This document shows positions 1 to 5,923 of a DNA stretch of 42,830 nt, piece by piece (within the stretch, counting starts at the first letter, position 1; each line of letters begins with the position of its first letter). The DNA lies in the NCBI GenBank assembly GCA_012517605.1, contig JAAYUS010000018.1, forward strand, positions 1 through 42,830, in the 5' to 3' direction. The notes below the pieces were generated by a model. It made no database searches, was not told the origin of the DNA, and saw nothing but the letters and a program-made list of their open reading frames with translations. Origin of the DNA: Bacteroidales bacterium. Lineage in GTDB: Bacteria > Bacteroidota > Bacteroidia > Bacteroidales > VadinHA17. The position numbers and the translations under genes were made by a program.

Positions 1-1233
1 CTGTCAGTGATTCCGGTTTTCTTTCCGGGATGTGCCAGGGATAATTCACCTGAGACCGGTCAGGAAAGCAAGGTCTTCAATTTTATTGTGACTGAACCAC
101 AAAAACAGCAAATAAACTCAAGCCGGGGACAACAATACGAAATAACCGATCCTCTTCCGCTGCTTGAATATAATGGCAGGGACTACACTATTGACAGGTT
201 TGAGATAAGGGGAGACAACACCCTTAATTTCGAAAGAAAAGGATTCGGGGTCAATATGGGGGATAAAATTCTTCTGTATAATCCTTACAACCAGACGGAA
301 AGGAAATATGAAGAATTCAAGCTCCTTGCAATGGTATATGATTACACATATATCGAGAACAGCATTGCGACCGGATTATTGAGGGATGCCGGTCTATGGC
401 CCGTTTTGAGTTTTTTCACGGAAGTCAGGCTCAACGGCCATACTCAGGGCCTTTACCATTTTATCGAGGATCCTGTCGAATATTTTATTGAAAAGGAAAA
501 CTCTTCCTGTGTTGTCCGCCGCGGATATGACCATGTCATCAAATCGTTCAGCATCAATCCAGTCAAGATACAGAATGCCGGATATTATAAAGAAAGGTTC
601 AGAAGAATTTACAATATCCTTCCTGATTATTCCGGATCTCAGCTGTTCGATACTCTTTCATCATATATTGATCTTGAGCAGTATTTTACGAAACTGAGCG
701 TGGATCTTCTCCTGAAAAACGGTGATTATACCGATGAGATATTCTTTTACACCAGGATGAAGAACGGCAAGGAGATTTTCGGCGTTTTTCCCTGGGACTA
801 TGATGATCTCTTTTCTGATGAGCCCCACGAAATAGGCAACTGGTGGGCAACCGGAACAGTATTCGGGTCGAGGGAATATAACAGTGTGGAAGATGTTGTT
901 GCCGATGTCGGGAACAGGTTGCTTTTTTCAATAGAAGATGACCTCGACTATAAAATAGCGAAGGATGAGTTCCTTTACCAGAAATATCTTCTTACCCTGA
1001 AATCGGTCATGGAAAAAACCGATATCGGTAAGATCGACATGATTTTTGATAAAACACTTGAGGACATTGGCCCGTTTTATGATAATGATTCAATTATAGC
1101 ACAGTCGAAGTATGACGTGCATGAGACCACACAAAGCTTGTTCCTGGCAAATCTGGCTCAGAAAAGGCAGATGCTGAAAGAACGCAGGAACTGGATAACA
1201 GGGGAAATTGAAAAACAGCTAATAAAGCCATGA
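1..1233 (+). CDS. CotH kinase family lipoprotein (5' end truncated by window edge)
   Basis: Open frame from base 1; lipobox-like VFFPGC near the N-terminus; CotH-like GVFPWDYDDLF and GLYHFIEDP motifs. Confidence 0.8.
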   Translation: MSVIPVFFPGCARDNSPETGQESKVFNFIVTEPQKQQINSSRGQQYEITDPLPLLEYNGRDYTIDRFEIRGDNTLNFERKGFGVNMGDKILLYNPYNQTERKYEEFKLLAMVYDYTYIENSIATGLLRDAGLWPVLSFFTEVRLNGHTQGLYHFIEDPVEYFIEKENSSCVVRRGYDHVIKSFSINPVKIQNAGYYKERFRRIYNILPDYSGSQLFDTLSSYIDLEQYFTKLSVDLLLKNGDYTDEIFFYTRMKNGKEIFGVFPWDYDDLFSDEPHEIGNWWATGTVFGSREYNSVEDVVADVGNRLLFSIEDDLDYKIAKDEFLYQKYLLTLKSVMEKTDIGKIDMIFDKTLEDIGPFYDNDSIIAQSKYDVHETTQSLFLANLAQKRQMLKERRNWITGEIEKQLIKP

Positions 1234-2957
1234 CAATGAAGAAACGGAAACTGTTTTTTTTGCTAATTTTTCTTATTTCAATAACAGGATGCAGCAAAAA
1301 AGAGGAACCGCTTCCGGAACAGCCGCCGGAAGGAAGTATAAACCTTTCCGAACTGACAACAAAAACCGATTATTATCTTCCTTTTGCAATCGTAAATGAT
1401 AAGGATAATATAAGTGCAGCCGTGCTGAACGGAGAGGCGATAGCATTTTCCTCAGGAGATTTCATAAAATTCGAAGAAACCGGATTTTATGAGCTGGTGC
1501 TGAAATATAAGGACCAGGGTAAACCAGATGAAACTATACTGTTCACCACAAAGGTGAAAGAGAGGGAAGCTGCCGAATGGGGAATAAGGGAATGGGTTCC
1601 CGAATCGTTCGAAAGTGTTTTTCCTGCGGGTGCTGAAATTGAAGGGATCTATCCACGGCATTATTCCGATACAACCGATATTCCGTTCATTTTCTATATA
1701 AAAGAATCGGGAATTATTAAACCTGTATATTGCGAAGGAATGAGTCCTTCAACCGGCACAGCTTTCAATATTAAGCAGGGAACAGGGTCGGTAGTTATCA
1801 ATTCCGCTTCAATAACCAGTCAGGCCCGTTTTACTATCGGAAGCAAGCAGTTTATCGCACCCCTGACCAAAATACAGGGAGTGCCCGTTGAACTAAAGGG
1901 CACTATAAACAGCCGTGTTGTGATCCCGGCGAATGCCCTTGTAAGGATAAAAGCCAATCTTGACATTCTGGCATCCGGATCGCTTGTAATAAATGAAGGT
2001 GCATTGATCCTTGTTGACGAAGCTGTCGATATCAATATCAGCGGTCCGGTAACATTTGCTGGCAGTTCCGACAATCCCATACTTGTTACATGCAGCCGTC
2101 GCGGAGGCTACTGGGGCGGATTTATTACCCGCGTTGCTACCGGGACCGTCAAGGCACAACATTCTATTTTCTGCCGCAGCGGTTACCATAATACTTCAGG
2201 TTATTTCTGGGGTCATGCAGGCCGCCAGGCATTGTTCTATACCGAAAACAGCACCCTTGATCTTGACCATTGCTATATCACTGATCATATAGGTCAGATA
2301 TTCTACCCTATTAATTCATCTATTAACCTGACCAATATCCTTGTACAGAGAGCAAAAACAGGAGGACAGGTCAATTATTCGAACCTCATCCTGAGAAATT
2401 CAATTTTCACTGATTTTCCAGACGATACATATGAGTACAAGGATGAAGATAACGACGCACTTTACCTGAGCGCTTCAGATGCTCAGATCGAAAATACAAT
2501 CTTCATGTATGCAAAAGATGACGGCCTCGATTCGGGTAATACCGAAGGAGGCACCATAACACTTTCAAACTGCAGGTTTGAAGCCTGCTTCCATGAAGGT
2601 GCTGCTCTATCGAGCGGTAATAATGCGGTAAAAAAGCACACTTTCACAAACTGTGTATTTACAAATTGCGGTCAGGGTCTTGAACTTGGCTTCAGTTCGC
2701 CGAATCACCTTGTTGTTGCTGAAAACTGCCAGTTTCTTAAAAACGGGGTAGGAATCAGGTATGGTGATAATTATGAATGGGCTGAAGTCGAAGGAAAAAT
2801 GATAATAAGGAATTCCTTCTCACTCAATAACGACAGGGATGTATGGAACATGGTACGGATGACATGGAGCCCTGTACTTGAAAATCTCACATTTGAGAAT
2901 ACTGTGGTTTCGAAACCATGTCCTCAGTATCCCGGACTACCAGTTATGGTTCAGTGA
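1230..2957 (+). CDS. Lipoprotein with right-handed parallel beta-helix repeats
   Basis: Signal peptide with lipobox (LIFLISITGC); repeated N-rich beta-helix rungs (LSNCRFEAC, FTNCVFTNCGQGLELG); 4-bp overlap with upstream CotH gene. Confidence 0.75.
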   Translation: MTMKKRKLFFLLIFLISITGCSKKEEPLPEQPPEGSINLSELTTKTDYYLPFAIVNDKDNISAAVLNGEAIAFSSGDFIKFEETGFYELVLKYKDQGKPDETILFTTKVKEREAAEWGIREWVPESFESVFPAGAEIEGIYPRHYSDTTDIPFIFYIKESGIIKPVYCEGMSPSTGTAFNIKQGTGSVVINSASITSQARFTIGSKQFIAPLTKIQGVPVELKGTINSRVVIPANALVRIKANLDILASGSLVINEGALILVDEAVDINISGPVTFAGSSDNPILVTCSRRGGYWGGFITRVATGTVKAQHSIFCRSGYHNTSGYFWGHAGRQALFYTENSTLDLDHCYITDHIGQIFYPINSSINLTNILVQRAKTGGQVNYSNLILRNSIFTDFPDDTYEYKDEDNDALYLSASDAQIENTIFMYAKDDGLDSGNTEGGTITLSNCRFEACFHEGAALSSGNNAVKKHTFTNCVFTNCGQGLELGFSSPNHLVVAENCQFLKNGVGIRYGDNYEWAEVEGKMIIRNSFSLNNDRDVWNMVRMTWSPVLENLTFENTVVSKPCPQYPGLPVMVQ

Positions 2958-2978: not shown

Positions 2979-4706
2979 TTATTTAACCTGAGCCGGGTGA
3001 CCTGTCATTTCGAGGATTGTTTTTCCGGCACCTGGACAGTCAATCTCATCTATATCAAAGATCACAGCACCGGCAAGGCCCCATTTTTCCTTTACCCTTT
3101 CGAGCAAGGCCCGGCGGGTTGTAAGGATAATATTGCAGGCCGGACCTTTAAGAAGCCTGGTAATGTTCTCCGCCCATCCTTCATCGCGAAGTTCAAGAAA
3201 ACCCACCTCGTCAATTATTGCAATACCGTTTTCAGGCAATTCCAGGTCTGACAATATCCTTCTTCCCTCATCAAGTCCCTTCTGACAGATAGTGAACCTT
3301 CCTACTGTTTCATTTCCGCAGCCTTCATTCTGTCTTAAAAATGGCACCTGTTCATCTGTTAATATATTAACAATATCGTATCCGGTTTTGCCGTCAGCGT
3401 CATTTACCTTCCTTGAAATTATTCCTCCGGCGGTGATACCTTTTTCTCTGAAAAGACCTGCAAGCTTTTCTGCAAAAGTTGTCTTTCCTCCGCCGACAGG
3501 ACCTGTGATGATAAAGATCTTTCTCACTGAAAATGGCATGTTTTTTATTTCTTCCAATCGTTTTTCAGCTTTGGAAATCACCATATGGAAAACAGATACC
3601 GGATTCCTTACAAGGCTTTTCAGATCAGGAATGGATGCAATGAAATCAGGCAGGCTTTCAGCCGACAGTTCAAGCGCCAGAGGAAGATTTTTAAAATATG
3701 TCCCTGAAAAGAAATTCCTTATCGCAGGGTTATAGAGCTCTGTTCCGATTACAGCAAATCCCAGGACAACCACTGCAGCCCTGAAATTCATCTGGATCCC
3801 AGTAATGATCCCCGATTGCAGTGAATGATCCCCGCTTTGCGCCTCTGTAAAAACAAAAGCTGTAACAAGTGTTAACACAATGAAAAATATCCAGAATCCG
3901 GGTTTTGAAAGCCGGCGGAGAGCTCGTTTGTACCTTAAGGACCAAAGAATTATGATCGCTGAAATACAGAAGCTCCAGTAAGGCCAGGCCGTTTTGTTCA
4001 GTATTATGAAGGAAAAAATTATCAGTATAGCATCAGCAGCGAGCCATGCAATTGAATATTTAAATGAGCCTGCTGGTTGATTTTTGTTGCGGGTTGTTGA
4101 GCTCACCGGTTGATTTGAGATCTCCGGTGCCGGTTGATGAATAAGGCGGTTACCTACAATCATGCCGATGACTCCCGATAAAAGTCCGAACAATGCAAAT
4201 AAAACCAGCAGGGCTATTATCGGAAGCCAGACTAATTCCGTCTGAATATTCAGTTGCTTTTGTGCCATCTTCAAAAGGTTCGAATAAACAAGAGCGATGT
4301 CTGATCCGTACATTATCAGATAATTCGCAATTTTCTGGAACAGGTTCCACGACATTGCCAGCATAGAACCTGCAAGATAGCCCGGCAGGCTCCTGCCGAA
4401 GACAAAAACTGAAAGCTCCAGCAGAAGGGATTCTGTGAAAATGGCTATCATCGGACCGAAGATCACAGCGCTGGGCGAAAGCGTTTTCATAAGCGCACAG
4501 ATCAGTCCGGCCCTCCAGAAAAGACCTCTGTCGGTCCAGACGTAGCTTATGGATATCAGGATGATGATTCCAATTGCGGTAAGTATATTGCCACCGAATG
4601 GCACCCTCAGATTATGAAGGAAACTTCCCAGCACGATCTCCGAAGCGGCCCATAAAGTGCCGGCAATGGAGGCCTTTATCCATTTTTCACTGAGCCTGTT
4701 TTCCAT
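2979..4706 (-). CDS. Multi-TM protein (ECF S/T-component-like) fused to C-terminal THEP1-type nucleoside-triphosphatase
   Basis: About 390 residues rich in hydrophobic helices, then Walker A GPVGGGKTT and DEVGFLEL Walker B typical of THEP1/NTPase_1; ORF track start (4826) replaced by internal ATG at 4706 (MENRLSEKW), which reduces overlap with the upstream gene. Confidence 0.7.
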   Translation of the reverse strand: MENRLSEKWIKASIAGTLWAASEIVLGSFLHNLRVPFGGNILTAIGIIILISISYVWTDRGLFWRAGLICALMKTLSPSAVIFGPMIAIFTESLLLELSVFVFGRSLPGYLAGSMLAMSWNLFQKIANYLIMYGSDIALVYSNLLKMAQKQLNIQTELVWLPIIALLVLFALFGLLSGVIGMIVGNRLIHQPAPEISNQPVSSTTRNKNQPAGSFKYSIAWLAADAILIIFSFIILNKTAWPYWSFCISAIIILWSLRYKRALRRLSKPGFWIFFIVLTLVTAFVFTEAQSGDHSLQSGIITGIQMNFRAAVVVLGFAVIGTELYNPAIRNFFSGTYFKNLPLALELSAESLPDFIASIPDLKSLVRNPVSVFHMVISKAEKRLEEIKNMPFSVRKIFIITGPVGGGKTTFAEKLAGLFREKGITAGGIISRKVNDADGKTGYDIVNILTDEQVPFLRQNEGCGNETVGRFTICQKGLDEGRRILSDLELPENGIAIIDEVGFLELRDEGWAENITRLLKGPACNIILTTRRALLERVKEKWGLAGAVIFDIDEIDCPGAGKTILEMTGHPAQVK

Positions 4707-5511
4707 TGTCGTTGATGATACAAATTTTCTTCGCTGCAGAATACTCAAAAAGATGGTAACCCGTGCCCCCCTCGCCGGCAAGATCGAAAAGCAGATCAGG
4801 CCTGATAATTTCAACAGCACCAACAAGGCTTACCTTTCTGGCAAACAGGATATCAGGTATTATGCTGCAAGACGGCCCTGTAATTACAACCCGGGCTTCA
4901 GGATCAATTACTGAAAGAAGATCATCAATTGTACTGTTGACGATCGTCTGACCGGTTATTATCACTGTACCTGCCATGGGAAGAACATTTTTATATTCCT
5001 CTGCAGGCTTGTAATAAACCTTCTGATCGGCCGTAAGGCAATTCTCATTTTTTTCCAGGACAGTCAACCGGCAGCCGGTCAGGGATATTTTCCGGATGTA
5101 CGATTGAAATCCCCCGACAACGGCTACGTAATCCCCGGGCTTGAATTCAAGCATCTGAACCGGATCACAATTCCCGGCAACGTTGTAGTTTCCTTTCCTT
5201 ATTATTCCCGAGGAAATGGCACTGAGTACTGCCGTTTTCAGGGAAGATATCAAACCTGATTCTTTTTTGGTCTCAAGAATGGCGCTGACGTTGTGTCCTT
5301 TAATTTTAAGGGGGGTGAAATCGCCAAAGTCTCTCCTGCCCTTTGCACATACCGGTAAATCATCAGACATTGTTGCAGAAGTTCCTAAGGAATTATCTGA
5401 CAATCGGACTACAGTCAGGTAAGTACCGATCCTGACATCCGCTATGCACAGATCACGTATATTTCCGGGATAATCTCTCTTTATAAGCTCATATGTTTCT
5501 TCAAATATCAT
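4687..5511 (-). CDS. DUF4213/DUF364 domain protein (putative heavy-metal chelation)
   Basis: N-terminal IADVRIGTYLTVVRLSDNSLGTSATM (DUF4213-like) and C-terminal GQTIVNSTIDDLL...VVITGPSCSIIPD (DUF364 Rossmann-like). Confidence 0.75.
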   Translation of the reverse strand: MIFEETYELIKRDYPGNIRDLCIADVRIGTYLTVVRLSDNSLGTSATMSDDLPVCAKGRRDFGDFTPLKIKGHNVSAILETKKESGLISSLKTAVLSAISSGIIRKGNYNVAGNCDPVQMLEFKPGDYVAVVGGFQSYIRKISLTGCRLTVLEKNENCLTADQKVYYKPAEEYKNVLPMAGTVIITGQTIVNSTIDDLLSVIDPEARVVITGPSCSIIPDILFARKVSLVGAVEIIRPDLLFDLAGEGGTGYHLFEYSAAKKICIINDNGKQAQ

Positions 5512-5835
5512 CGCAGTTTAAGTTGAGAAATATAAAATCTGTACCCCTCAAAACAGAAGAACCTCTGATCAGTGAATTCACACTGCTGAAATTCTTGTCT
5601 GTCCTGAACTGTTGCTCATATTGATTACGTAAATATATTGGATTTAATGCTACTTCTGACAGCTCATAAACTGTTGATGGAAGATTTTAAAAAGAATCAG
5701 GGGTTCCGCTATCTGCTTGTACCGGGAATATGGGCCAATGCGGGCCACCAGGGATTTCACCACCCAAACCCTTTGATTCTGCTTTAAATCTCCTGATCGG
5801 TTTCGTCTGGTTTATCCCCTGACCTTTGTCGCCTG

Positions 5836-5923
5836 TTTTACCCCCCAACCCCCCTGAAGGGGGGCTAAACTCTTGTATGATAGTCTCTTGGCCTCCATTT
5901 AGGGGGGGTTGGGGGGTAAACCA
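5836..5923. repeat. G/C-run palindromic REP-like element, copy 1 (right arm degenerate)
   Basis: ttttaccccccaacccccctgaaggggggctaaac ... ccatttagggggggttggggggtaaacc; outer arms are reverse complements. Confidence 0.8.

Follow-up and report, generated by a model that had tools for sequence, protein, structure and literature searches.

What does a membrane protein that carries a THEP1-type NTPase on the same chain do, and is it, as the original prediction proposed, a one-chain ECF transporter with an S-like and a T-like part? The gene lies in the window, the whole 42,830-nucleotide stretch of Bacteroidales DNA that was analysed. We detected that the fusion belongs to a large, undescribed bacterial family linked to molybdenum cofactor (Moco) genes, and relatives are frequent in genomes that have molybdoenzymes but lack MoaC, suggesting that it is the best candidate seen here for a missing cofactor-uptake system. 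The substrate and the transport itself are inferred.

A conserved membrane-NTPase fusion

The observation behind the original prediction is real, and all of its named peptides are present. The frame is open from the ATG at 4706 to the stop at 2979; a TTG extension to 4826 exists, but relatives begin at the same MxxxLSEKWIKAS. The features are as follows.

2979..4706 (-), 575-aa fusion protein: S-like membrane domain, second membrane block and THEP1 NTPase
4122..4706 (-), residues 1-195: predicted S-component-like membrane domain, the part shared with a distant clade
3540..4064 (-), residues 215-389: second membrane block with long helices before the NTPase, not shown to be EcfT
2982..3518 (-), residues 397-575: THEP1-type NTPase (PF03266)
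3477..3503 (-), Walker A GPVGGGKTT, residues 402-410
3207..3212 (-), Walker B D499-E500 in IIDEVGFLEL
4687..5511 (-), DUF4213-DUF364 protein (putative heavy-metal chelation), upstream gene overlapping the fusion start by 20 bp

Residues 1-390 are membrane helices without any Pfam family. Residues 398-541 match Pfam NTPase_1 (PF03266, E 9.9e-22, 78 bits against a curated cut-off of 23.9) and the solved THEP1 chains 2i3b and 1ye8, and the window NTPase does not match MobB (PF03205). The Walker motifs are intact, and G407, K408, D499 and E500 are invariant in 63 aligned sequences. The genes farther out encode CotH and beta-helix proteins, aldo/keto reductase, esterase, Nramp, NadA, GidA and phosphofructokinase. 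Relatives of both members of the CotH-kinase and beta-helix pair (window 7-2957) also flank the fusion in another locus, L022. A 21-nt inverted repeat of C/G runs with a 48-nt spacer (window 5834-5923) lies in the gap upstream of DUF364.

Restriction of the fusion to one assembly had been named in advance as a result that would point to misassembly, and this was ruled out. The full-length search matched 34 of 60 related genomes, with identities from 64% down to about 30% over long matches. A scan of genome contigs with a membrane-domain alignment gave 521 encoding stretches; the 80 kept are nearly all labelled Bacteroidota and all carry the membrane part with the NTPase, apart from truncations at contig edges. 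Maribellus and Lutibacter are among the named relatives. Searches of plasmids and viral contigs returned no relatives. Split copies in genomes G006 (locus L053) and G016 (locus L036) may be frameshifts and were not used as evidence of modularity. The membrane-only relatives in genomes G042 and G049 (loci L050 and L051) are cleaner, each next to a MobA-like gene, with the NTPase elsewhere. G049 also has, at L054:4662-7607, a stand-alone 229-aa membrane protein whose start reads like the S-like domain (W..SE..MG..LH), beside a THEP1 NTPase and an XdhC-MocA-like fusion.

Predicted fold and comparison with ECF transporters

The interpretation in the original prediction is partly supported: the THEP1 identity holds, the S-like assignment has suggestive support from predicted fold, and the T-like assignment is not supported by sequence. 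AlphaFold gives 7 helices in residues 7-190, further helices in 219-389 and an alpha/beta domain from 397 (mean pLDDT 81). With the whole chain, Foldseek returned only THEP1 as significant, and the MFS hits have TM near 0.15 and are noise. Modelling the parts separately had been suggested as a test, and residues 1-195 alone (pLDDT 87, pTM 0.81) match 5edl, the ECF S component YkoE (PMC5037267), first of all PDB chains (TM 0.58/0.57, probability 1.00), with RibU (5kc4 and 3p5n) lower in the list. The E-value is only 0.27, so that the match is suggestive and leaves the S-component assignment undecided. YkoE is likewise a small membrane domain for a scarce nutrient, but no sequence similarity to it was detected, the domain here is fused to a THEP1 NTPase, and no EcfT or EcfA partner was seen. 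A sequence search of the PDB with the membrane part gave no meaningful relative.

For the second block, the CbiQ model gave no hit in the family, and a profile comparison with 16 real CbiQ proteins from related genomes gave a probability of 0.5%; the fold of this part alone was not examined. The window's own genome, 94.6% complete, has no EcfT/CbiQ. The absence of EcfA genes nearby had also been proposed as a check, and no ABC ATPase was found among the 16 window proteins scanned; EcfA was not searched genome-wide. Membership in the ECF transporters fails on two of three defining components, the ABC ATPases being judged from the window proteins only, and the ECF label is not earned. The proposal that THEP1 replaces the ABC ATPase or modifies the ligand is still possible. 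The molybdenum cofactor context, which carries most of the meaning, was not seen in the original prediction.

Molybdenum cofactor genes and the distribution of the family

We analyzed the neighbours of the 80 named loci. Molybdenum genes (ModE, MocA-like, XdhC, PsrA/PhsA-like, MobA, XDH) are 28 of 410 within three genes, against 6 of 310 at seven or more genes (p 0.002), although 58 of the 80 loci have no molybdenum gene within three genes. DUF364 is adjacent in 38 of 80 and found in 0 far away; it was independently proposed to act on pterin- or flavin-like ligands in rare-metal uptake, with molybdate and tungstate genes in its context (PMC2954201). In genome G055, which has no MoaA or MoaC hit, one run reads TonB receptor, DUF364, fusion, MoeA, MogA. 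The more divergent part of the near clade (loci L036-L053) has a recurring cluster of NifX-like, OsmC and DUF134-like genes, named by eye and of unknown role, next to the fusion.

A class-wide profile search detected a distant clade of 330-360 aa proteins matching mainly the S-like part. Profile comparison (hhalign) links them to the window family (probability 97.6%, E 4e-12, residues 17-191), and the similarity is detected only over the S-like domain. W19, E23, G27, H31, P36, S77, P78 and G134 are invariant in both clades, and K74 is present in 44 of 45. In 14 loci of this clade the membrane protein is followed by the THEP1 NTPase in 12, the NTPase being fused to MobA in 9; FdhD lies nearby in 8 and an FdhF/YdeP molybdoenzyme in 4. 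The NTPase is thus fused to the membrane protein in one clade and to MobA in the other, a Rosetta-stone link.

Of 397 class genomes, 196 have MoaC and 231 the molybdopterin-dinucleotide domain (PF01568). The 14 carriers found with the first profile, besides the window's genome, all have PF01568 and none has MoaC (p 1e-4); in this set only MoaC was tested, not MoaA, MoeA or MoaE. A sharper profile (A3), run on 80 chosen genomes, found the protein in 15 of 20 MoaC-less genomes with PF01568 at E<=1e-7, against 1 of 25 MoaC-positive controls from the same families (p 6e-7), the controls being chosen by family and not at random. Counting every MoaC-less genome with any PF01568 match, however weak, it is 16 of 55, and many of the rest have only weak matches that may be NuoG-like. 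Within one family the contrast is 9 of 9 against 0 of 8, and contrasts occur inside single genera (genomes G176 and G228 against G362, G412 and G428; G272 and G378 against G395; G426 against G326). The tallies were transcribed by hand and the genomes are not phylogenetically independent. The only MoaC-positive control carrying the distant-clade membrane protein, G432, shares a genus with the MoaC-less carrier G120. The pattern expected of a salvage system, presence where molybdoenzymes exist and MoaC is absent, was observed, but it is not exclusive, the near clade being found also in MoaC-positive genomes.

Among the 60 relatives the trend is weaker: 12 of 16 MoaC-less and 17 of 27 MoaC-positive molybdoenzyme genomes carry the fusion, and 18 of 33 carriers have MoaC. 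All seven genomes with MoeA but no MoaC carry it, and three of them have an aldehyde ferredoxin oxidoreductase next to MoeA. Fourteen of 15 MoaC-less carriers lack ModB. Four carriers (G007, G013, G021 and G047) lack PF01568; G013 and G021 have an AOR-type enzyme instead, and the other two were not resolved. In genome G054, without MoaC and without a detected membrane protein of this family, NarGHJI nitrate reductase genes are followed by a TonB receptor and a stand-alone THEP1 NTPase (L059:1-7522), possibly another form of the same module. The window's own genome (G000) has MoaA, MoaC, MoeA and MogA but no clear ModB. Its MoaA (L140:2419-3219, contig C238) is short, 266 aa, as in relatives, and the C-terminal part is reduced against the MoaA model.

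Candidate functions

A genome that keeps molybdoenzymes, MobA and FdhD without MoaC needs cofactor or molybdopterin from outside or an unknown route, and the one membrane protein that recurs beside MobA in such genomes is this one. We tentatively suggest that the protein is the inner-membrane part of a module that brings the molybdenum (or tungsten) cofactor, molybdopterin or a metal-pterin form of it into the cell. In this view the N-terminal domain, predicted to fold like an ECF S component, binds the ligand, and the THEP1 domain on the cytoplasmic side uses ATP or GTP to drive release or to trap the ligand chemically, for instance by rephosphorylating a dephospho form, before MogA-MoeA or MobA/MocA finish it. 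Handing over to MobA is a further possibility for THEP1. DUF364 would bind or process the pterin, and a TonB receptor, present in some operons, would carry the ligand across the outer membrane. Our analysis demonstrated the fusion, its conservation, the genomic linkage to Moco genes and the excess in genomes without MoaC; the S-like fold is suggested by prediction only, while transport, the ligand and the role of the NTPase are inferences, since no transport, binding or NTPase data exist and uptake was not assayed here. The Moco link itself is strong. In the window's genome and in other MoaC-positive carriers there is no strict need for salvage, and in the window's genome uptake would be supplementary to synthesis. 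The seven MoaC-less carriers that keep MoeA nearly all lack ModB, so that their metal source is unexplained. The THEP1 of Aquifex hydrolyses ATP and GTP slowly, showed no kinase activity and was argued not to be a kinase (PMC1079890), which weighs against the kinase version.

A molybdate/tungstate or metal-chelate importer standing in for ModABC/TupABC, with the S-like domain binding the metal or its chelate and DUF364 handling the chelator, is less likely overall, although for the window genome import of molybdenum or tungsten in some chelated form is a real rival. ModE genes lie near the fusion in several loci, DUF364 has been described in Mo/W transport contexts, G007, like the window genome, has MoaC but no ModB, MoaC-less carriers with MoeA-MogA or AOR lack ModB, and group I ECF S-like proteins also import Ni/Co. 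This reading does not explain why carriers so often lack MoaC while keeping molybdoenzymes and MobA. Replacement of ModB as the sole reason for carriage was rejected, because among MoaC-positive genomes ModB is as common with the fusion (16 of 18) as without (11 of 12); Wtp and Tup were not searched with their own models.

A membrane-anchored maturation platform without transport, in which THEP1 is a MobB-like adaptor handing cofactor to MobA/MocA and to membrane-bound or exported molybdoenzymes, is also unlikely. The NTPase is fused to MobA in 9 loci, as MobB-MobA fusions are found in NCBIfam, and there is linkage to XdhC, FdhD and PsrA/PhsA-like enzymes. However, a maturation role gives no reason for the excess in MoaC-less genomes or for TonB receptors in the same operon, the FdhF/YdeP and XDH partners are usually cytoplasmic, and the conserved core is a membrane domain resembling a substrate-capture component.

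Incidental molybdenum linkage, with the family transporting another scarce vitamin or metal, appears still less likely: the many near-clade loci without a molybdenum gene and the NifX-like, OsmC and DUF134 sub-group are in its favour, but the linkage recurs in two clades with different gene sets and matches the gene-absence pattern. An ordinary ECF transporter, in which the chain supplies S and T and recruits EcfA encoded elsewhere with THEP1 as an accessory domain, is very unlikely, having only the S-like fold in its favour and, against it, the absence of EcfT/CbiQ from the window genome, a second block unrelated to CbiQ by profile and the lack of an ABC ATPase among the 16 window proteins scanned.

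Known THEP1 is a small soluble protein of unknown role (PMC1079890), while here it is tied to a membrane protein or to MobA. The distant-clade proteins resemble bifunctional MobA-MobB proteins in fusing a P-loop NTPase to the MobA guanylyltransferase, but the NTPase is PF03266 rather than MobB PF03205 and a membrane protein stands with it. CobU/CobP, the cobinamide salvage kinase-guanylyltransferase, offers an analogy of logic only (a scarce cofactor imported, then a P-loop enzyme plus GMP transfer); homology was not tested. The combination of an S-like membrane domain without a Pfam family, THEP1 instead of ABC ATPases and a Moco context matches no described system found here, and no paper describing it was found in the literature searched, which left out preprints and most subscription journals; the distance from ECF transporters would be smaller if the second block proves to be EcfT-like.

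A published survey found several hundred prokaryotes with molybdoenzymes but no complete Moco pathway, most without Mo transporters, and left them unexplained, proposing unknown synthesis genes or Mo-independent enzymes (PMC6147048); we found no uptake system named there. Work on C. elegans notes that how Moco crosses membranes is unknown (PMC9793310), and THEP1, also found in humans, has no known function (PMC1079890). Taken together, the family provides a concrete candidate gene and operon that makes the first question directly testable and bears on the other two. If the tentative reading is true, an S-like membrane protein with a THEP1 NTPase, feeding MoeA-MogA or MobA, would be a bacterial importer for Moco or molybdopterin, which would let bacteria run molybdoenzymes without making the cofactor and would give THEP1 a physiological role.
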